Source: Chryseobacterium sp. JM1
GTDB lineage: Bacteria > Bacteroidota > Bacteroidia > Flavobacteriales > Weeksellaceae
Reading direction: 5' to 3'
Assembly (NCBI RefSeq): GCF_000737715.1
Contig: NZ_JPRN01000007.1
Location: 1-64,000, forward strand
Length of the DNA: 64,000 nt
The position numbers and the translations under genes were made by a program. Under the pieces are notes generated by a model. That model did not search any database. It worked only from the letters and a program-made list of their open reading frames with translations, and was not told where the DNA came from. Each line of letters begins with the position of its first letter. Positions within the stretch are counted from its first letter, which is position 1. Shown one piece after another: positions 1 to 10,420 of the stretch.

Positions 1-537
1 ATTGGATTTTGTAGCATTATTTTCCCAAATAGTGGTGGTCACGAATTGAAAGACATCGTTTCCTATATTAACACCATATTCAAATTTAACAGGTTGGGTG
101 TTCCAGGCATTTCCTACTTGCTTCTGTTCCAAAATTCTATCTAATGGAGAATTTTCCAGTATTTTCTCTGAAAAAATCTTTTCTGAGCCGTAAATATCGG
201 GTTGGGTTGCATTCGCTAATGGTGTTGACACTATTGCTCCATTCACGGTTCCTGATTGTGGAACAGGTAAGTAATCTTTGGTCTGCCTTCCGTACTGATC
301 GTATTCAATATGGGTAACAACGTCTCTTCCCAAAGGAGAAGCTTTTATGTTCACCACCTGTTTAGGTCTTCCAAGACCATCTATATACTGAACGGTTTCT
401 GAAGTTTTTGTCGGTTGGCCGCCTGCATTATAATCAAGATAGGATTTAGAATACACATAGTTTTCTCCCTGGGTAAGCTGGGCATTCACGGAATGAGCCA
501 TCAGCAAAGCCCCGATGGGAATGATTATTTTTTTCAT
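1..537 (-). CDS. DUF6443-type RHS-like surface protein, N-terminal part (runs off the window)
   Basis: This is the first 179 codons of a secreted protein whose 3' end lies outside the window. It begins MKKIIIPIGALLMAHSVNAQ, a signal peptide with a likely cut after the Ala-Gln region, followed by LTQGENYVYSKSYLDY and VQYIDGLGRPKQVVNIKAS. That opening is characteristic of DUF6443 domains at the head of Bacteroidota RHS-repeat proteins, which are usually exported, often by T9SS, and sometimes carry C-terminal toxins. The C-terminal end cannot be seen, so toxin status is unknown. Its ATG overlaps the TGA of the upstream RHS-like gene (ATGA), implying translational coupling with 534-3896. Confidence 0.8.
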   Translation of the reverse strand, partial: MKKIIIPIGALLMAHSVNAQLTQGENYVYSKSYLDYNAGGQPTKTSETVQYIDGLGRPKQVVNIKASPLGRDVVTHIEYDQYGRQTKDYLPVPQSGTVNGAIVSTPLANATQPDIYGSEKIFSEKILENSPLDRILEQKQVGNAWNTQPVKFEYGVNIGNDVFQFVTTTIWENNATKSN

Positions 538-3500
538 GGTTGTGTGTAGTTTTTATAGTTATATTGGTATTCTTTCGCGATTCTGTATCCACCATTTTTA
601 TCCAGCTGTTTTACTTCTTTCAGTCGGTTTGCAGTGTCGTAGGTGTAAATTTCTCTCATTCCGGACGGTGGAGTGATGCTGGTTACACCAATTAATGGAT
701 TGTAAGTATACGTACTGATCTGATATCCTGATAATGCAGAATTGTTTCTAAACAGATCTAAAGCTGCAACCAATGATTGTTCGGAAGCCTCTGTACCCAA
801 CTGCGCATCATTGTCTGAGGCATTGACGATGTTATCAATTAATGACTGGCTGATATCTGATAGTTTCGCGCCTTCAATTTTAGCAATGGGCTGGGTTTTA
901 CTGTAACCCCAGATTACAGTCGTAGAAATTCCGGCTTTTGTAGTGTATTGCTGTATGTTTCCTTTGGAATCATATCTGTCATAAGTAGCTTCGGTAGATG
1001 GTGCATTGTTTTGAAGGTCATAGGAAACAGATGATAAAGGAAGCACCAGAGAAGCGCTGTTGTTTGTAATTTCAGCAACGGTTTTCGGATAAATGGTTTC
1101 TGTTCTCGACAACGTTTTTGTAATATTTCCAATCTTCTGCGTTGTTGAAGTTTCCAGAGGAAGTCCTATCATATTCTTACTGATCATCAACTGATTGCCT
1201 TTTTCATGGGCATATTGGTAGGTGGTTTCTGTGACCATATGGTCTGAAGTTTTTGCCGTTACGGTTTTCACGTTCATAGGTTTATTGATATCCGTATCGT
1301 AGTAAGCTGATTGGGTAACCGTTTCTACGACTCTATTTCCAGGGAAATATTCTGTCGTTTTAGATTCAGTATTTTCAACCTTACCCGAATTGATCGCTAA
1401 AATTTCTTTATTTACTAAATATATATGGCCATAAATGGTCTCATGTGTACTACTCGTTATTCTTTTGGGATATTTTACAATATCCAGATTTAAAGCAAAT
1501 CCCATTTGGTTGGGATCTCCGGTAATAAATCCGGCTTTAGGGTTTTTTAGATTATTAAAGGCATATTTATTAGTTTGAACTCTCAAAGTATCACCCAGCT
1601 TATTTAAGATGATACTTTTTTCCAGCAATCCATTTTTCCAGTCATCATAATTGGAATAAATGTGGGTGTACATTTTATCACTGTCTGAAGTGTTGACCTT
1701 TGAAAATATATTGATGCTTTCTCCCAAATCATTATACTCTGTTACTTGCTTATAAGTAATAACATCTGAAGAACCATAGCTGTTATAACTGGTGCTTGAG
1801 TTATTAATAACAAGATATTTTTGAACATACGGGGGATATATTTCAGCTCCCTCGTTGTTAAGTTCAGAATATCTTTTCAGTAAACTTGTATATTGAAAAG
1901 GCATATTCAGAACGCCGCTGCTTTTATTGGTATTGGTAGCCGGATCGAAGGTTTCGTATTTATAATTGTAGGCATTTACAATGCTGTTTTCATTTTTATC
2001 TTCAATTTTTTTAATTCTAAGCCCTCCAATCGGAACGTTGGTATTCACCGTGTTATATTTTCCATACTCTACATCTATTGCATATCCGCACTGGCATTTA
2101 CCCTGTCGGGATAAAGATATGTTGAATACATTATTCGAGGGATACAGTTCAAATACAGCCGGTTTTCCATTAGTCCCATAATTCTGCCCCATAACCATAG
2201 CATTCCCATAGCAGGAGGTATCATGAACCTGACTGGTTTCGTCATCTACATTGTTTTGACAGGTATTCCCAAATGTCAGTTTGATCTTAGAAGCTACTTT
2301 TCCATCAAAGAAACTTTGTGGAATAGTGACGGTTTGGGTTACATCTCCAAAATCATCACTGAATCCCCCTGTTCCTGTAGGTTCGCTCATTACCGTGGCA
2401 AAATTGTCTAGATATCCCCATTGATAATTTGATTTTGTGAAAAATTTACTGGCGTTTTCATAATACAGATTTTTACTTCCACCGGTTGGATATTCAATTT
2501 TATTTAAAATACCAATCTGTGCATAGGTCGGATTGGTATCACGATTCCTGGTATATTGAGGTTTTACAGAAACATTTTCACTTGGGGATACATAATCTGT
2601 ATAAACCTGATCGGGAAGATTGTATGAGCCTTCACTGGAATTAGTAGAATTAATATATCCCCAATAGTCATCATTATTAGAATTACGGGCAGGAAAGGGA
2701 ATACTTTCATTATAATAAAATTTATAATAATTATTCTGCAGGTCATCATAAACGTTCAATAGCTTCAGCCTGTAATTCTGAAAATCAGTACCGTTATTTG
2801 AAGTAAAATAAGAATAATTCATGTGATAATTCTTGATAATCTTTCCATAATTATCTTTCACAAGAACCTGACGCAGCGCCACACCATTATTGCCCGAAAG
2901 GTCTTTTCTTATACTTGTTCCGTCAGAAAAAGGCAATCCGTCATTAGAATAATTGAAATATACAGTTCCGTCGGGAAAAATAATTTTTGTAATTAATTTC
3001 TCCATACTGGCTGCTGTTCCTGTATACCTTTCATATTCAGGTAAATTAGGTGGCAGATTTACATCTGTCATAACGTTTTTAGTGATATCAATATTTACTT
3101 TTTCAGTAATACTTTTTTCCTCATAGGAGTATGATTTTGCATATTCGAATAAAATCCTCTTATTATTTGCAGTTCTGATACTATCAACCTGATAAAGTGT
3201 TTGTGAGCCAGAACTTGTACTTCCCGGAACACCTGAGTCTAATAATGTAGAGTTCTTTGTACTTAAGAAATAGGTAGCTCCGTCCGTGCCTACAATTTTG
3301 ATATTCTTTTTGTTATTTGTAGCGGTAATCAACAGATCCTCATGAGGAATCGTATATCCTGTATCGTTATTAAAAATAAAGCTTCCTCCTCCCAATGGCA
3401 GGGAATAATTGAACATATCGGGTCTTGTATCATATACCCCTTCATAATGATCAGCCACGACTTGTCGGAGCTCATTTTCGTGCATACTTATATCAACAAG

Positions 3501-3896
3501 TTTGGATAATATCGTATTGACATTTTTAGTATACATTGAAGAATACTTGTCATCTTTATCCACAATATTCTGGTTGATGCTGCCGGGAATATTTAAAGAC
3601 CAGCCTAAGCCTGCAGTACTGGCCACCTCATTTAATTTTATTCCGCCGGTATTATATGACAGGGAAACAGGAATATTAATCCCATCCACATTCACAGTAT
3701 AAAAAGGAATATTGATATTGGCTTTTCCTCTAAACATATCAACCGGAAGCTTCCCCACTTTGTCCATTGCATATGCATTCGCGGAAGTAGGAAAAGCGAC
3801 AATATTTTTTTTCTGTGTACTGTAATCTCCCACTCCGGATTGACTGTATCCGGTAGAAAAAATATAAATAAATAATAGTATAAAAACTTTTTTCAT
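534..3896 (-). CDS. Large secreted RHS/YD-repeat-like protein
   Basis: A 1120-residue exported protein with an N-terminal signal peptide (MKKVFILLFIYIFSTGYSQ). The first 120 residues contain FPTSANAYAMDKVGKLPVD and VSLSYNTGGIKLNEVAS, typical of Bacteroidota proteins that precede DUF6443/RHS proteins. The last 150 residues contain IWGYSKTQPIAKIEGA and a YD-like repeat (EIYTYDTANRLKEVKQLDK). The middle has many beta-rich YxxY segments resembling RHS shell repeats. It starts 6 bases after the stop of the T9SS type A gene and overlaps the next gene by 4 bases, so the three genes form one operon. A role in a surface-exposed or cargo-encapsulating shell is inferred from the family; no catalytic motif was seen. 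Confidence 0.75.
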   Translation of the reverse strand: MKKVFILLFIYIFSTGYSQSGVGDYSTQKKNIVAFPTSANAYAMDKVGKLPVDMFRGKANINIPFYTVNVDGINIPVSLSYNTGGIKLNEVASTAGLGWSLNIPGSINQNIVDKDDKYSSMYTKNVNTILSKLVDISMHENELRQVVADHYEGVYDTRPDMFNYSLPLGGGSFIFNNDTGYTIPHEDLLITATNNKKNIKIVGTDGATYFLSTKNSTLLDSGVPGSTSSGSQTLYQVDSIRTANNKRILFEYAKSYSYEEKSITEKVNIDITKNVMTDVNLPPNLPEYERYTGTAASMEKLITKIIFPDGTVYFNYSNDGLPFSDGTSIRKDLSGNNGVALRQVLVKDNYGKIIKNYHMNYSYFTSNNGTDFQNYRLKLLNVYDDLQNNYYKFYYNESIPFPARNSNNDDYWGYINSTNSSEGSYNLPDQVYTDYVSPSENVSVKPQYTRNRDTNPTYAQIGILNKIEYPTGGSKNLYYENASKFFTKSNYQWGYLDNFATVMSEPTGTGGFSDDFGDVTQTVTIPQSFFDGKVASKIKLTFGNTCQNNVDDETSQVHDTSCYGNAMVMGQNYGTNGKPAVFELYPSNNVFNISLSRQGKCQCGYAIDVEYGKYNTVNTNVPIGGLRIKKIEDKNENSIVNAYNYKYETFDPATNTNKSSGVLNMPFQYTSLLKRYSELNNEGAEIYPPYVQKYLVINNSSTSYNSYGSSDVITYKQVTEYNDLGESINIFSKVNTSDSDKMYTHIYSNYDDWKNGLLEKSIILNKLGDTLRVQTNKYAFNNLKNPKAGFITGDPNQMGFALNLDIVKYPKRITSSTHETIYGHIYLVNKEILAINSGKVENTESKTTEYFPGNRVVETVTQSAYYDTDINKPMNVKTVTAKTSDHMVTETTYQYAHEKGNQLMISKNMIGLPLETSTTQKIGNITKTLSRTETIYPKTVAEITNNSASLVLPLSSVSYDLQNNAPSTEATYDRYDSKGNIQQYTTKAGISTTVIWGYSKTQPIAKIEGAKLSDISQSLIDNIVNASDNDAQLGTEASEQSLVAALDLFRNNSALSGYQISTYTYNPLIGVTSITPPSGMREIYTYDTANRLKEVKQLDKNGGYRIAKEYQYNYKNYTQP

Positions 3897-3902
3897 CTTA
3901 GT

Positions 3903-5537
3903 TTATTTCTTAATTAATTTCGCACTCGCTGTCTTATTCGTATCTGTCTTTATCGTCACCAGATAAGCCCCCTGAATCAGATTCTGCGTATTGATCTTCG
4001 TCACCTTATTCTTCGTCTTCAAGCTCTGAAGTTGTCTTCCACCCATATCGTACAGAATAATATCAGCTTCCTTAAAACCTTGCCCTGAGCCTGTCGAAGG
4101 GTCAAAGCCTATTTCTACATAAGCATAATCTGAAACCGGATTCGGATAGATCTTGATGTCTTGTTTTTCAATTAATTTATTGATCTGGCTGTCCCCTAGT
4201 TTCACGATCTTCCAGTTTTCTTTTCCAAGCTCTTCTGCACTAGTTCCTGCCAGGATGATGGAGCCATCTCTGTTTAATTTGATATCTGAAAGTCTTTCCT
4301 CTTTTTTCCTGGATTCTCCTTTCACATATTTTCTCCACGCTTCATTTCCGTCTTGGTTGAGATAAAGCATCCAAAACGTTTCATCGTCTGTTTGTATTTT
4401 TCCTTCTGCCTGCGTATAACCTCCTAAAAGAATTCCTTTTGAAGATTTATCATCTGCTGAATGAAGAACACTCATCCCCATCAGAATATCACGGTTCTTG
4501 AAATTGAAAGATTTCTGCCAGATTTCATCACCTATTTCATTTAAAGAAATTAGCCAAAGATCTGTTCCTTCCTCAATGCCTACCGTTTTATTTCCTGACC
4601 TTTCAGATCTGGATTCTCCACCGATTAAATATCCTGCTGATGTTAAGGCTAATGTTCTGATATGATCATCACCTTTTCCTCCATAGTTCTTTTCCCATTC
4701 CACTTTTCCGGTTTTGTCGAGTTTGACGATCCAGTAGTCGCCCTCGCCGAAATTATCCGTAGACTTACCGGTTCGGGATACGGGATACGAGGTTGCCGAA
4801 GACAATTTATCCGTGGAACCCGAAACCCGGATCCCGGAACTTCTCGAGTAAATTCCCAACAAGGCTCCACCATCTCTGGTAGGAATTATTTTCTCCACTT
4901 CATCCAAGCCTTTTCCGCCTAAAACCGTTTCAGAAAGAACCTTTCCGTTTTTATCCAGTTTTGAGATCCAAACATCTTTTGAACCGTAACCGCTAGTTCC
5001 CTGAGGCTCTCGAAGGGAACTTTGTCTGTTTCCTGCCACAAAAAATCCAAGATCCGTAGTTTGGATAACCGATCGTGCTTCCTCATCAGAAGAACTTCCC
5101 AGTGTTTTCTGCCAAAGCTCATCTCCGAATTCATTGATTCTGATCAGCCAGATATCAGATCCGCCTTTGGAATCTTCTTTTTTATCGAGTCCCTTTCCGG
5201 AATAGGAAGTTCCGGCCAGAAGAAATCCTCCTTCCTGAGTGGCTACGGAGGCTGACAAATAATCGTGGTTTTGACCTGAGAAATATTTTTCCCAGATCTG
5301 CTCACCTTGTTGGTTCAGTTTGATTAAATGGAAATCGTAACCGTTGTTTTGCTTTCCTGTTCCCTGAGGCTCTCGAAGGGAACTTCCTGAAATAAGATAT
5401 TGCTGATCAATAGTCGTGGTCACCTGGCTTAGAAAATTCTGTGTAGAAGATCTGATGTCTTTCTGCCACAATACTTCCTGGGCAGAAAGCCCCAGAAGCG
5501 TGCACAAGATCAATGCACCGGAGTAGAATTTCTTCAT
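3903..5537 (-). CDS. T9SS type A sorting-domain protein with beta-propeller-like repeats
   Basis: A 544-residue secreted protein. It has a signal peptide (MKKFYSGALILCTLLGLSAQ), then about six to seven repeats of the form GGSDIWLIRINEFGDELWQK, a repeat typical of Bacteroidota WD-like or propeller proteins. A C-terminal T9SS type A sorting domain (about residues 462-544) begins KIYPNPVSDYAYVEI and ends ASAKLIKK. It should cross the outer membrane through T9SS, whose core genes gldKLMN are in this window. The coding sequence carries four in-frame palindromic insertions, annotated separately, located in loops before the D-W strand of the repeats or near the sorting domain. It is the first gene of the operon and has a good Bacteroidota promoter just upstream. 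Confidence 0.85.
   Translation of the reverse strand: MKKFYSGALILCTLLGLSAQEVLWQKDIRSSTQNFLSQVTTTIDQQYLISGSSLREPQGTGKQNNGYDFHLIKLNQQGEQIWEKYFSGQNHDYLSASVATQEGGFLLAGTSYSGKGLDKKEDSKGGSDIWLIRINEFGDELWQKTLGSSSDEEARSVIQTTDLGFFVAGNRQSSLREPQGTSGYGSKDVWISKLDKNGKVLSETVLGGKGLDEVEKIIPTRDGGALLGIYSRSSGIRVSGSTDKLSSATSYPVSRTGKSTDNFGEGDYWIVKLDKTGKVEWEKNYGGKGDDHIRTLALTSAGYLIGGESRSERSGNKTVGIEEGTDLWLISLNEIGDEIWQKSFNFKNRDILMGMSVLHSADDKSSKGILLGGYTQAEGKIQTDDETFWMLYLNQDGNEAWRKYVKGESRKKEERLSDIKLNRDGSIILAGTSAEELGKENWKIVKLGDSQINKLIEKQDIKIYPNPVSDYAYVEIGFDPSTGSGQGFKEADIILYDMGGRQLQSLKTKNKVTKINTQNLIQGAYLVTIKTDTNKTASAKLIKK
4083..4101. repeat. Short palindromic repeat inside a gene (copy 3)
   Basis: CCCTGAGCCTGTCGAAGGG has CCCT/AGGG-type arms and lies in frame in the T9SS type A gene, encoding part of PSTGSGQG at about residues 479-487, close to the start of the sorting domain. 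It is a variant of the same motif found at 4996 and 5359. The motif family occurs dispersed in many bacterial genomes (recalled, not searched). Confidence 0.6.
4769..4846. repeat. In-frame 78 bp element with imperfect terminal inverted repeats
   Basis: The left end GGTTCGGGATACGGGATACG (4770-4789) and the right end CGAAACCCGGATCCCGGAAC (4821-4840) are imperfect inverted copies. The element adds about 26 residues (around 231-256) to one propeller repeat of the T9SS type A protein, rich in Ser, Thr and Arg and unlike the other repeats. The reading frame is kept. This resembles small non-autonomous palindromic elements that spread into coding sequences. Confidence 0.55.
4996..5020. repeat. Short palindromic repeat inside a gene (copy 2)
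   Basis: The 25-base sequence has ends GTTCCCT and AGGGAAC around a GAGGCTCTCGA core, identical base for base to the copy at 5359-5383. On the coding (minus) strand it reads SSLREPQGT, at about residues 172-180 of the T9SS type A protein, in a loop before a D-W strand. Confidence 0.65.
5359..5383. repeat. Short palindromic repeat inside a gene (copy 1)
   Basis: Identical to the repeat at 4996-5020 and read in the same frame (SSLREPQGT, about residues 51-59). It sits at the equivalent loop of another propeller repeat. The two perfect copies stand in otherwise diverged repeats, so they are later than the repeat duplications or have been homogenised. Confidence 0.65.
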
Positions 5538-5796: not shown

Positions 5797-7239
5797 TTAT
5801 TTCCAGCCACCGCCTAAACTTTTGTAAATATCTACAACGGTACTTAGCTGTTGCTGTTTGGCTTCGATCAGCTCCATTTTCGCATCCAGCGCATCCCTTT
5901 GATTCAGAAGAACTTCAAGATAATCTGCTCTTGAATTCCTGAACAATTGGTTCGCAATGTCAATCGACTGATCCAGCGCTTTTGTTTCCTGCGACTTCAT
6001 CTGATAGTATTGATCTATATTTTTAACCTTTGACATCAGATTAGCCACATCCAGATACGCATGCAAAATCGTTTTGTCATACTCGTATAACGACTGGATC
6101 TGTCTCGCATCCGCGGTCTGGAAGTTCGCTTTGATGGCGCTTTTATTAATCAGAGGTCCTGCTAATTCTCCAGCCAGATTATAAGCGATGGATTCCGGCA
6201 TTTTAACCAAATAAGAAGGTTTAAAAGCTTCCAGCCCTAACGTTGCAGAGATCTCCAGTGACGGATAAAACTCTTTTCTCGCAGCCTGTACATCCAGTTT
6301 TGCCGCTTTCAATTCAAGTTCAGCCTGTTTGATATCCGGACGGTTAGCCAGTAACTGAGACGGTATTCCCGTATACACAGTCTGTGGCATCGTAGACATA
6401 AAGCTTTCCTTAGCCCTTACAATAGGTTGCGGATATCTTCCCAGAAGCGCATTGATCTCGTTTTCTTTCTCCGTAATATTCTGACGGATCGTGTATTCCG
6501 AAGCTTTGGATTTTGCCAGTTCAGCTTCAAATTTCTTCACAGCCAGCTCCGTAGCCGCAGCAGCTTCTTTCTGAATTTTGGAAATTTCCAGTGCTCTTTC
6601 CTGCAGCTTAATATATTGCTGAATAATATCCAGCTGATTATCCAAAGCCAGCAATTCATAATAATTGTCTGCTACTTCTTCAACAAGGCTGGACAGAACG
6701 AAGTTTTTACCCTCAACTGTAGAAAGGTAATGAGCAACAGCTGATTCCTTCTCAGTTCTGAGCTTTTTCCAGATATCAATCTCCCAGTTCGCCATGAATC
6801 CTCCTTCAAAATTCCCCAGCGGATCCGGCATTTCTCTTCCGGGTTCTATTTCCGTAGTGGCATCACCGGCGCCTTCGCTGGTATAACGTCCGGCTTTTTT
6901 AAGACCGGCTCCTATTCCGGCTGAAACAGTTGGGCTTAGTTTTCCTTTTTTCGCTAAAACACTGCTTTTCGCCATTTCAATCTGCTGAAGCGTGATCAGT
7001 AATTCCTGATTGTTTTTTAAAGCAGTTTCAATTAAGCTTACCAGATTCGGATCTGTAAAAAACTGTCTCCATGGAGTTGTACCACTGTTTGCATTGGCAT
7101 CCTGCTGCTCTTCCTGATTGAAATTCTGAGGCAGGTTTTCTTTTACTTCATCTTTTATAACCGTGGCCATTGGAGCTCTACAGCCTGTGAGTACAAGCGA
7201 TAGAGCAATGGCTGCTATATATTTATTATAAATCTTCAT
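5797..7239 (-). CDS. Outer-membrane factor of an RND efflux pump (OprM/CusC/NodT family)
   Basis: A 480-residue outer-membrane lipoprotein with lipobox LTGC (Cys20) and two OEP/TolC repeats covering about residues 55-475. It has the coiled-coil helices and a conserved second-repeat segment, GIPSQLLANRPDIKQAELEL, at about 290-310. It would form the trimeric exit duct for the inner-membrane pump encoded just upstream. Its start overlaps the stop of the pump gene by 14 bases, and a strong terminator follows, so it is the last gene of an adaptor-pump-duct operon. Substrates cannot be read from sequence; family members export drugs, detergents or solvents. Confidence 0.93.
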   Translation of the reverse strand: MKIYNKYIAAIALSLVLTGCRAPMATVIKDEVKENLPQNFNQEEQQDANANSGTTPWRQFFTDPNLVSLIETALKNNQELLITLQQIEMAKSSVLAKKGKLSPTVSAGIGAGLKKAGRYTSEGAGDATTEIEPGREMPDPLGNFEGGFMANWEIDIWKKLRTEKESAVAHYLSTVEGKNFVLSSLVEEVADNYYELLALDNQLDIIQQYIKLQERALEISKIQKEAAAATELAVKKFEAELAKSKASEYTIRQNITEKENEINALLGRYPQPIVRAKESFMSTMPQTVYTGIPSQLLANRPDIKQAELELKAAKLDVQAARKEFYPSLEISATLGLEAFKPSYLVKMPESIAYNLAGELAGPLINKSAIKANFQTADARQIQSLYEYDKTILHAYLDVANLMSKVKNIDQYYQMKSQETKALDQSIDIANQLFRNSRADYLEVLLNQRDALDAKMELIEAKQQQLSTVVDIYKSLGGGWK

Positions 7240-10200
7240 GTTTGTTATCGTGTTGATAAGGTTCAGTTTGTTCTGTTAAAGGATTCTCTTCTTCATATCT
7301 TGCCAGCCTCGATTTCTCTGCAATAGTTCCGAAAATATAATACAGTCCCGGAATAATCATCAGTCCGAAAATAGTTCCTATCAGCATTCCTCCTGCTGCT
7401 GCCGTACCAATCGTTCGGTTTCCTACAGCTCCCGGTCCGGTGGCCATTACCAACGGAATAAGACCCGCGATGAAGGCAAATGAAGTCATCAGGATCGGAC
7501 GGAAACGGATGGCCGCCCCTTCGATAGCTGCCTGTGCTACAGGAATTCCTTCTTCTGCTTTCTTCTGAACGGCAAATTCGACGATCAATACAGCATTTTT
7601 ACCCAGCAGACCAATCAACATGACCATCGCCACCTGAGCGTAAATATTGTTTTCAAGGCCTAATAATTTCAGGCATAAGAATGCTCCGAAAATACCTGTA
7701 GGAAGGGATAAAATCACCGGCAACGGCAGGATAAAGCTTTCATACTGCGCTGCAAGAATCAGATACACAAATCCAAGACAGACTAAGAAAATAAATACCG
7801 CTTCATTTCCTCTGCTCACCTCGTCTTTAGAGATACCCGCCCAGTCGATACCGAAACCTCTCGGAAGTGTTTTATCAGCAACTTCCTGAATCGCTTTAAT
7901 GGCCTGTCCACTACTGTATCCCGGCGCAGGAGTACCACTTACTTCTGCGGAGTTATACATATTGTGTCTTGTGATCTCTGACAATCCATATACTTTCTGC
8001 ATTTTCATAAAATCAGAATACGGAACCATCTGTTCTTTATCATTTTTCACATACAATTTCAGCAGATCGGTAGGCAGTGCACGGTATTGCGGCCCAGCCT
8101 GTACAATCACTTTATACGGTCTGTCGAAACGGATGAAACTGGTCTCATAGTTGGAACCGATCAATGTGGACAGGTTATCCATCGCACTTTGGATCGTTAC
8201 CCCTTTCTGCTCGGCAAGATCATTATCCACTTTCAGCATGTACTGAGGGAAACTTGCAGAATAGAAGGTAAATGCAGACCCAAGTTCAGGGCGTTTCTTC
8301 AGTTCTTTAACAAAATCATTACTTACCTGCTCCATTTTATGGTAATCTCCACTTCCTGCTTTATCCAGCAAACGGAGTTCGAAACCTCCTGCAGCACCAT
8401 AACCCGGAATGGAAGGCGGCTGGAAGAATTCTATGTTAGCACCAGGAATATTCTTGGCTTTTTCCTCGAGCTTTTCAATGATTTCTGCGGCAGATTCCTT
8501 ACGTTCTTCCCAACTTTTAAGGTTGATCAGACACGTTCCAGAGTTGGATCCCGTACCTTCTGTCAGGATTTCATAACCAGCCAGTGAAGAAACGGACTGT
8601 ACCCCATCGATATCTTCAGATTCTCTTAATAATTCTTTCGCAATCTGATTCGTTCTTTCCAGAGTAGATCCCGGAGGTGTCTGGATAATCGCATAAATCA
8701 TCCCCTGATCTTCCGCCGGAATAAATCCTGAAGGAAGTGAGTTGCTTAAGAAGAATGTACAGGCACAGAATGCCAGTAATAAAGGAAGTGTAATGGATTT
8801 TTTCTTAACTGTTTTGTTAAGCATTTTCTCATATCTTCCTGCTCCTTTCGTGAATAAATTGTTGAATTTATCTAAGAAAATAGTAATCGGTGTTTTCTTT
8901 TTAGCTTTTCCGTGGTGATTTCTTAAGATCAAAGCACATAAAGCCGGAGTCAGTGTCAAAGCTACAACCCCTGAAAGGATGATCGCTGAAGCCATCGTAA
9001 TGGAAAACTGACGGTAAAATACCCCAACCGGACCTGACATAAATGCAATCGGAATAAATACGGATGCCATTACCAAAGTGATCGCGATAATCGCCCCACT
9101 GATTTCATGCATCGCTTCTTCCGTAGCTTTTAAAGGTGAGAGTCCTTTTTCTTCCATCTTGGCATGGACAGCTTCAATCACCACAATCGCATCATCGACG
9201 ACGACCCCGATGGCCATTACCAATGCAAATAGTGAGATCATGTTCAGCGTAATTCCAAATGCGGACATGACTGCAAATGTTCCAACCAGTGAAACAGGAA
9301 CCGCCAGCGCCGGAATTAAGGTCGAACGCCAGTCTCCAAGGAACAGGAATACCACAATGGCTACCAGAATAAAGGCTTCAAATAAGGTATGAATTACCTT
9401 TTCCATGGATGCATCCAGGAATCTTGAAACGTCATAACTGATGTCATAGTGCATTCCTTTCGGAAAGTTATTTTTCTCAAGATCTTTCATCAAAGTTTTC
9501 ACATTTTTGATAACGTCACTTGCATTGGAACCGTAAGACTGTTTTACTGTAATCGCGGCAGAAGGTTTTCCGTTCAGTGTAGAATAGATATCATACATGG
9601 AAGAACCGAATTCTATATCCGCTACATCTTTTAATCTTACAAATTCTCCTCCCGGTTTTGCTTTCAGGATAATATTTCCATAATCTTTTTCATTGTTGAA
9701 ACGTCCGGAATATTTCAGAATATATTCGAAAGACTGGGAACGTTTTCCTGAACTTTCTCCCGTTTTACCCGGAGAAGCTTCCAAACTCTGCTGGTTCAGG
9801 GACTCCATTACTTCGTCTGCGGAAATATTGTAAGCGGTAAGTCTGTCCGGTTTAAGCCAGATACGCATTGCATATTCACGGGTTCCGAGGATATCTGCGA
9901 AACCTACTCCACTTACCCTTCTCAATTCGGACATCACGTTGATATCAGCATAGTTGAAAAGGAATTTCTGGTCAGCTTTGGGATCGTCACTGTACAGGTT
10001 AATGTACATCAACATGTTGGGTTCTTCACGGGTAATTTTTACCCCTTCACGCACTACAAGCGGCGGAAGTTTGTTGACCACGGAAGATACACGGTTTTGA
10101 ACGTTTACTGCGGCTACATTGGGATCTGTTCCAAGATCAAATACGATCTGAATGGATGCTTCCCCGTCATTACCGGCATCGGACGTCATATATTTCATAC

Positions 10201-10420
10201 CCGGAACTCCGTTCAGTCCTCTTTCGAGGGGAATAACTACCGATTTAATCAATAGTTCGTTGTTGGCTCCCGGATATTCTGCGGTGATATTTACTTTTGG
10301 GGGTGAAATGGAGGGAAACTGGGTCACTGGAAGTTTTACCAGCGACAGAACTCCCATAAATACGATGATCAGTGAGATCACGATAGACAGAACAGGTCTG
10401 CGGATGAATTTCTTAAACAT
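7226..10420 (-). CDS. RND multidrug efflux permease, HAE1 (AcrB) family
   Basis: A 1064-residue inner-membrane proton antiporter, full length for the AcrB family. Visible hallmarks are the N-terminal FIRRPVLSIVISLIIVFMG, the TM4 proton-relay pair in GVVVDDAIVVIEAVHAKM (near residue 410), the periplasmic loops containing PPGSTLERTNQ and TPAPGYSSGQAIKAIQEVAD, and the TM10 Lys in LIGLLGKNAVLIVEF. The charged relay residues D-D and K place it in the hydrophobic and amphiphilic drug group rather than the metal HME group. It is the middle gene of the adaptor-pump-duct operon. An extended cytoplasmic tail follows the last membrane helix. Confidence 0.95.
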   Translation of the reverse strand: MFKKFIRRPVLSIVISLIIVFMGVLSLVKLPVTQFPSISPPKVNITAEYPGANNELLIKSVVIPLERGLNGVPGMKYMTSDAGNDGEASIQIVFDLGTDPNVAAVNVQNRVSSVVNKLPPLVVREGVKITREEPNMLMYINLYSDDPKADQKFLFNYADINVMSELRRVSGVGFADILGTREYAMRIWLKPDRLTAYNISADEVMESLNQQSLEASPGKTGESSGKRSQSFEYILKYSGRFNNEKDYGNIILKAKPGGEFVRLKDVADIEFGSSMYDIYSTLNGKPSAAITVKQSYGSNASDVIKNVKTLMKDLEKNNFPKGMHYDISYDVSRFLDASMEKVIHTLFEAFILVAIVVFLFLGDWRSTLIPALAVPVSLVGTFAVMSAFGITLNMISLFALVMAIGVVVDDAIVVIEAVHAKMEEKGLSPLKATEEAMHEISGAIIAITLVMASVFIPIAFMSGPVGVFYRQFSITMASAIILSGVVALTLTPALCALILRNHHGKAKKKTPITIFLDKFNNLFTKGAGRYEKMLNKTVKKKSITLPLLLAFCACTFFLSNSLPSGFIPAEDQGMIYAIIQTPPGSTLERTNQIAKELLRESEDIDGVQSVSSLAGYEILTEGTGSNSGTCLINLKSWEERKESAAEIIEKLEEKAKNIPGANIEFFQPPSIPGYGAAGGFELRLLDKAGSGDYHKMEQVSNDFVKELKKRPELGSAFTFYSASFPQYMLKVDNDLAEQKGVTIQSAMDNLSTLIGSNYETSFIRFDRPYKVIVQAGPQYRALPTDLLKLYVKNDKEQMVPYSDFMKMQKVYGLSEITRHNMYNSAEVSGTPAPGYSSGQAIKAIQEVADKTLPRGFGIDWAGISKDEVSRGNEAVFIFLVCLGFVYLILAAQYESFILPLPVILSLPTGIFGAFLCLKLLGLENNIYAQVAMVMLIGLLGKNAVLIVEFAVQKKAEEGIPVAQAAIEGAAIRFRPILMTSFAFIAGLIPLVMATGPGAVGNRTIGTAAAGGMLIGTIFGLMIIPGLYYIFGTIAEKSRLARYEEENPLTEQTEPYQHDNKHEDL

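Follow-up and report, generated by a model that had tools for sequence, protein, structure and literature searches.

Hairpin and heptanucleotide repeats in the loops of a predicted beta-propeller family of Chryseobacterium

The host gene and its repeats

The DNA considered here is a stretch of 64,000 nucleotides (nt) of Chryseobacterium sp. JM1 (contig NZ_JPRN01000007.1, positions 1 to 64,000), hereafter the window, in which one gene of 544 codons, listed as a single open frame on the minus strand at 3903-5537, holds short repeats inside the DNA for several loops of its product. A 25-nt hairpin resembling the repetitive extragenic palindromes (REPs) of bacteria, GTTCCCTGAGGCTCTCGAAGGGAAC, lies at 5359-5383 in loop B, which follows repeat 1 of the predicted protein, and a second, identical one at 4996-5020 in loop A, after repeat 3; both are on the minus strand and encode SSLREPQGT. 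On the same strand, loop F of the C-terminal domain contains a 24-nt insert encoding PSTGSGQG at 4077-4100 (edges uncertain by about 1 nt), where a 19-nt core, CCCTGAGCCTGTCGAAGGG, is found at 4083-4101, and loop C, after repeat 4, is occupied at 4769-4846 (minus strand) by a 78-nt block of degenerate 7-nt units of the GGGATAC or GGGTTTC type. An initial annotation of this DNA had reported two identical 25-base palindromes, a 19-base relative and a 78-base stretch within one gene, all keeping the frame; each was found in its place, and translation returned SSLREPQGT twice and PSTGSGQG once, as had been claimed. The same annotation put them in loops before the D-W strand of the repeats, which does not hold for the copy at 4083, located in the C-terminal domain and not before a D-W strand of a blade. 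At up to two mismatches the window contains three matches to the core, where shuffles would lead one to expect 0.01. The term palindrome is only partly justified, since hairpins do form but are imperfect: the 25-mer makes seven outer and three inner pairs on either strand, its folding being matched by 6 and 4 of 200 shuffles, whereas the 19-mer alone folds no better than shuffles.

By its C-terminal Por_Secre_tail, the sorting domain of the type IX secretion system (T9SS; 43.3 bits for a cut-off of 27 in a Pfam profile search), the host protein is predicted to be a secreted T9SS cargo. An AlphaFold2 model built from 49 sequences (mean predicted local distance difference test 73.2, predicted template modelling score 0.78) displays repeated four-strand units and a C-terminal beta domain, an arrangement suggestive of a beta-propeller, for which the strand order would indicate seven blades. 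CylK is an alkylating enzyme with a propeller. It is the top fold match of the model (PDB 7fh6 and 7ron; E 5.5e-18, template modelling score 0.59 by query length, root-mean-square deviation 6.2), and residues 61-200 of the host protein also match it by sequence (E 6.5e-14); the match, however, spans one CylK domain (chain residues about 515-657), and the host protein adds the T9SS sorting domain. Low-confidence segments of the model at residues 57-65, 175-184, 234-263, 379-383 and 481-486 match loops B, A, C, E and F, the first two overlapping the 25-nt hairpins, the third the 78-nt block and the last the 24-nt insert, although low confidence in loops may partly reflect gappy alignment there.

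Filled and empty loops among paralogues

The host gene belongs to a family with a match at E<=1e-100 in 163 of 173 Chryseobacterium genomes, from 1 to 8 matches being counted per genome (the best 8 at most). Among named genomes, the best 80 of 478 relatives, which were those kept, are all titled Chryseobacterium. The JM1 genome contains six full or nearly full copies of the family gene, a further one (C3) that a frameshift splits, and five fragments located where contigs end. Five contigs (C9, C13, C20, C24 and C30) end inside family members, and the copy number in this genome is therefore uncertain. The frameshift of the split paralogue (L049, C3:107584-109120) falls between loops D and E.

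Ten copies of the core occur in this genome when one mismatch is allowed (eight exact, two with one mismatch), and all ten are in paralogues of the host gene: three each in C5 and C7, two in C23, and one each in C13 and C30. At two mismatches 33 more matches appear, the same number as in the reversed control. A core element dispersed through this genome was rejected on these two grounds, and the search of genome and genus suggested by the initial annotation bore out its expectation of repeated motifs, though in this genome only inside the family.

Members with and without the repeats do exist, and the residues concerned are not common to all orthologues. Alignment of the paralogues shows the 24-nt insert of loop F in C7, C5 and C23 and its absence from seven others (C20a, C10, C15, C3 and the partial copies C30, C24 and C20b). 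At loop A, SLREPQGT is present in C7, C5 and C30 and missing from C23, C10, C15 and C3, with other residues in C20. The 78-nt block of loop C has a short loop in its stead in C10, C15 and C3, and loop B differs among paralogues.

Reading frame and orientation across the genus

For the genus, 118 distinct family genes, some of them partial, were gathered from high-scoring members and from loci chosen for carrying the core; the set took only open frames of at least 300 codons, so that frame-breaking copies could be hidden. Length varies in these genes around residues 56 (loop B), 171-181 (A), 230-257 (C), 359-365 (D), 379 (E) and 478-489 (F). One inter-repeat loop recurs along the protein: it is loop B after repeat 1, A after repeat 3, C after repeat 4 and E after repeat 6. 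Its counterparts following repeats 2 and 5 have a conserved sequence, yet low model confidence.

With up to two mismatches, the core was matched 78 times in 48 of the 118 genes and the reversed pattern not once. All 78 matches are in sense orientation, and the loops that contain them are B, A, E and F; one frame accounts for 42 of them (SLREPQG and TLRQAQG types) and another for 36 (PSTGSG, PSRASG and PSTSSG types). As the same conserved DNA is read in two frames, a conserved peptide offers no explanation: the shared feature is DNA rather than peptide. The other 70 genes are core-free, and many of their loops are variable too. All the fetched DNA was moreover re-scanned for the inner core, in order to catch copies that break a frame. 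This yielded 83 distinct copies within the family: for 80 the open frame spans at least 300 codons, for three it is cut by the end of a fetched stretch, and none of the 83 was seen to break a frame; 82 are sense and one is antisense.

The element outside the gene family

The exact core is present in 59 of the 173 Chryseobacterium genomes, and its reversed control in none. When one first-match locus per genome was taken (n=30), 11 fell in the host family, two in a urocanate hydratase context and 17 in no frame longer than 164 codons, so that 11 of the 13 in-gene copies belong to the host gene family. One urocanate hydratase gene, identified by sequence search (L068:675-2675, minus strand), carries the core in frame as HTLRQAQGT, and its TLRQAQG falls where the best-matching urocanate hydratase of known structure has a gap of 5 residues in the alignment; the context in the second genome (L080) was recognized by a like peptide only.

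The 17 loci outside the family hold 18 copies, which are preceded by a TGTCA tag before the stem (T in 15, G in 12, T in 15, C in 15 and A in 16 of 18). This tag is absent from the in-gene copies, which are single or in tandem. Over the 45 nt upstream to which the copies were traced, 9 of the 18 have the end of an inverted partner, CAGCCTGACA. The stem is followed by varied bases, T or C predominating at first and T, C or A thereafter.

The inner 13-nt core was used to collect 65 distinct contexts outside the 118 genes. Their flanks are complementary at three pairs in 62, 59 and 62 of the 65 contexts, the innermost pair being nearly always C-G and the other two swapping C-G, G-C and T-A, as in a covarying stem. 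The first position of this stem is A-T in 27 of 65, the second is C-G, G-C or T-A, and a GA/GA step breaks it; the 5-nt loop was fixed in the search pattern for the core, with other loop lengths outside that pattern. In the family, three flank pairs are complementary in 67, 66 and 61 of 68 contexts, and in 68 of 68 the core as so defined is antisense to the gene, that is, the defined hairpin is on the template strand. Altogether, the core outside the family is, by its sequence, a REP near the CGTC type (CCCT-GA-G-N5-C-GA-AGGG).

In a sample of Bacteroidota, the exact CYTGT form was found in 30 of 395 genomes and 22 of 170 genera (reversed control 0). A genome of the same class (G537, L303) was seen to hold 193 exact copies of the REP core. 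Y1-type transposases occur in 153 of the 173 Chryseobacterium genomes. A link between them and the core received no clear support, as 55 of the 153 genomes that have such a transposase carry the core, against 4 of the 20 that lack one (Fisher p 0.21), one of the latter with 11 copies.

Spread of the hairpin

The 25-nt form, whose loop is GCTCT or GTTCT, has a longer stem and no tag. Its 28 copies come from 11 genomes, all of one genus, among the 320 searched in the taxonomic family, and 28 of 28 lie in the host gene family. Such a restriction makes it probable that this form spread chiefly from paralogue to paralogue and not through repeated transposition. Several arrangements show copies side by side or within one gene: the host gene has the identical 25-mer in two of its loops, loop B holds core copies in a row in L197, L198 and L200 and two in L199, and in loop A of three members a second hairpin sequence is nested in the first (SSLPFDSAQGKLPQGT or a one-residue variant).

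When the genes were compared by segment, the nearest relative was in the same genome for 46-63 of 82 genes, and some genes (e.g. L018 of this genome) are clearly nearest to the gene of another species. The nearest partner within the genome switches along the gene in 48 of 54 genes, where 100 column shuffles gave 42.3 on average and 46 at most; the between-segment variance of identity is 0.116, for a mean of 0.037 and a maximum of 0.058 in the shuffles. These mosaic paralogues are read here as the outcome of duplication and gene conversion.

The 78-nt block and the heptanucleotide repeats

The block of loop C had been described as a 78-base element with imperfect terminal inverted repeats, a description that does not stand, as it is variable heptamer-repeat DNA with no discrete unit. 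One of its strands folds more stably than shuffles (z -2.5) and the other does not (z -0.8), the loop varies in length and content among the 118 members, and identity between positions seven nt apart (lag-7 match) reaches 0.427 over 100 distinct loop-C sequences, compared to 0.274 in conserved parts of the gene. A mobile unit similar to a miniature inverted-repeat transposable element is accordingly not supported. The lag-7 match is 0.544 in loop D and, more weakly, 0.36 in loop B.

Related DNA is found elsewhere in the genome. A 20-nt piece of the block has 14 matches with up to three mismatches (reversed control 0), five in the family and nine outside it, the latter in repetitive stretches with no frame longer than 135 codons. 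At these nine loci, picked for a 7-nt-type match and hence a biased choice, the lag-7 match of non-coding DNA is raised to 0.344. In the case of loop D, 39+37 matches to its unit (AAGARYC)n, in part overlapping, were counted in the genome, family genes accounting for four, and none in the reversed control; 30 of the 76 matches were fetched, and 21 of the 23 distinct loci so obtained are intergenic by a 100-codon rule. As the unit is mostly intergenic, loop D reads a mostly intergenic repeat as protein. The 7-nt arrays are local: a strict scan found none in the window and four in 80 loci, and the mean lag-7 match is hardly raised in the non-coding DNA of the window, of the 80 loci and of L057-L086.

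Composite arrays of degenerate 7-nt units were also observed on many contigs of this genome (e.g. L338, L353, L354 and L364, around 1500), with the units following each other in much the same way: AATGGTG-type, AAGARYC, CAGAYNT, then CAACTAG and AACTCTC types. We know of no description of such arrays. Near-perfect (CAACTAG)n arrays lie downstream of AAGARYC units in L350, L357 and L361.

Neighbouring genes

Downstream of the host gene, at 534-3896 on the minus strand, lies a gene for 1120 amino acids, with no Pfam match at 0.001, which by eye is RHS-like. The 19-nt core was not found in it in a scan of the window. In 75 of 80 Chryseobacterium loci the family gene is followed, in the same orientation, by a relative of this gene, and the pair of propeller gene and RHS-like gene looks like a multi-copy cassette. 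The minus strand at 5797-10420 contains, by eye, genes for an outer-membrane factor and RND-type efflux, unrelated to the repeats.

Origin of the repeats

The explanation that we favour, with a probability of about 0.7, is that two repeats of intergenic type, the REP hairpin and the degenerate 7-nt arrays, were taken up in frame by a small number of exposed loops and then spread mainly among paralogues. Hairpins and arrays of 7-nt units would enter exposed loops of the predicted secreted beta-propeller in frame; the loops would tolerate the added polar residues, and those insertions rich in Ser, Thr, Gly and Gln that keep the frame would survive, selection acting mainly as tolerance of the repeats rather than through a use for them. 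A captured repeat may subsequently spread by duplication and exchange between paralogues of the same genome, by copying from loop to loop and by local tandem duplication, repeated transposition being a lesser route. The wide occurrence of the core outside the family suggests that the direction was from intergenic DNA to the gene.

Several observations weigh against this explanation. Within three mismatches the tagged intergenic core is absent from the JM1 genome, where the in-gene copy alone was matched, and as the two-mismatch matches of the core equal their control, the supposed source is visible only in relatives. A clean insertion is seen at loop F alone, where no target duplication was noticed, and the filled and empty alleles of loops A, B and E differ also in neighbouring codons. 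The single antisense 25-mer, in loop A of a family gene of genome G161 (L378, around 1506) and in frame as SLRLSKGT, needs an inversion or a separate insertion, as copying among paralogues alone would not produce it. The mosaic signal is modest as regards partner switches, and the larger excess of variance may come from unequal rates along the gene. Moreover, the 118 genes are a non-random sample with copies related by descent, and their counts are not independent events. The 7-nt period is lacking in loops A and F (lag-7 match 0.249 and 0.277) and in the window's own non-coding DNA. As for the structural model, loop D is outside its low-confidence segments, and segments 114-125, 312-323 and 408-411 have low confidence and no repeat.

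An unlikely alternative is that the loops grow by slippage, through local tandem duplication, and that their likeness to intergenic DNA reflects a shared mutational bias to 7-nt units. The tandem cores of loop B in the four loci named above fit with it, as does the 7-nt period of loops C and D and, less so, of B; heptanucleotide repeats are also reported to outnumber the other classes in the majority of genomes that one survey covered (PMC4679880). Slippage nonetheless gives no account of the same 19-nt hairpin in different loops and species, and what loop D matches is a specific unit, AAGARYC, whose 76 partly overlapping matches are dispersed in the genome.

Rather unlikely too is an active invasion of the Rickettsia type, to whose elements the initial annotation likened the palindromes, in which a mobile palindrome would still transpose into genes and the family would only show the survivors. 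In-frame copies at several sites, in two frames and once in opposite orientation, would be expected from such a process, to which may be added the urocanate hydratase case, of which another genome shows a similar context, and the presence of Y1-type transposases in most genomes of the genus. Yet the core is limited to one family in this genome and the 25-nt form to that family among 320 genomes, 82 of the 83 distinct in-family copies are sense, the core shows no clear association with Y1 transposases, and loop F lacks a noticeable target duplication. The Rickettsia comparison is thus right in kind, with in-frame REP-like repeats in loops, two frames and a likeness to CGTC REPs, and wrong in reach, since a single paralogous family is concerned rather than genes in general.

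It is also possible, although improbable, that the repeats are used as recombination sites for the exchange of loops among paralogues, diversifying an exposed face of the protein. This would be in line with the position of the variable loops B, A, C and E as one and the same inter-repeat loop, with the mosaic paralogues and with the identical 25-mer in two loops of one gene; however, 70 of 118 members are core-free and likewise differ in their loops, the counterparts following repeats 2 and 5 show conservation, and both binding and recombination are putative. More doubtful still is the broader idea that the loops of one propeller face form a diversity-generating site fed by intergenic repeats, which would provide portable loop modules and homology for exchange between paralogues. 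If true, a multi-copy secreted protein would keep changing its exposed surface, perhaps the one that meets the RHS-like partner.

Finally, an ordinary loop sequence, maintained by selection on the protein or reached by convergence without any DNA element, is very improbable and was set aside together with chance, for although polar peptides fit loops and many core-free loops are variable as well, the 19-nt DNA occurs in two frames (SLREPQG/TLRQAQG and PSTGSG/PSRASG) at different loops, once antisense, and the copies outside the family have their own tag and a covarying stem, and the reversed control gave no match in 173 genomes.

Relation to known repeats

The REPs tagged with CGTC, described by Di Nocera et al. 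in 2013 (PMC3733652), have a loop of 4-5 nt and occur predominantly as head-to-head dimers. The likeness to them lies in a small hairpin, in the TGTC-type tag of the non-family copies and the inverted partners of half of them, in the lack of an evident dedicated transposase and in some units inside genes; the 5-nt loop, prescribed by the search pattern, is within their range by construction. An unpaired CGTC, TGTC or CCTC at one end, by which that account recognizes the class, is found in the non-family copies only. There are, on the other hand, clear differences: the in-gene copies are untagged, the 25-nt form is longer in the stem, no stem of 8-9 bp opening with two A-T pairs was recovered here, the CCA-like tail is missing from the 18 non-family copies, and 11 of 13 in-gene copies among the 30 first-match loci are in one family. 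The Rickettsia palindromic elements (RPEs) RPE-4 and RPE-6, which were placed in the CGTC super-family, are likewise in-frame palindromic repeats inside open reading frames (PMC3733652), but they lie in various unrelated genes, whereas here 10 of 10 genome copies are in one paralogous family. As for the GTAG REPs, with their associated tyrosine transposases (RAYTs) and paired forms (REPINs), these are also hairpins and often inverted pairs; here, in contrast, the GTAG tag is absent, with TGTCA instead, and some core-bearing genomes have no Y1 transposase gene.

The TAACTGA-type heptamer arrays, also reported from five Bacteroidetes (PMC4679880), resemble the present ones in being 7-nt direct repeats, mostly intergenic, and differ from them in that here the units are degenerate, several kinds stand side by side, and protein loops are also formed. 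A literature text search for the letters of the core gave no match, and no report of these repeats in Chryseobacterium was found among literature titles and abstract openings, by which alone several genome papers were judged.

REPs inside genes were already known, in assorted and mostly unrelated proteins; what is new here is that the loops of one family of surface proteins contain intergenic repeats of two kinds. With listed in-gene REPs scattered over such proteins, it is hard to ask whether they matter. In the family described here, the same repeats are present or lacking in the same few loops, with natural empty alleles. The dispersed 7-nt arrays of this genome are a second subject deserving separate study. 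The host family is a clear example of ‘junk’ DNA made into protein, and it allows us to ask how non-coding repeats become protein, why certain orientations and frames survive, and whether exchange between paralogues spreads them.

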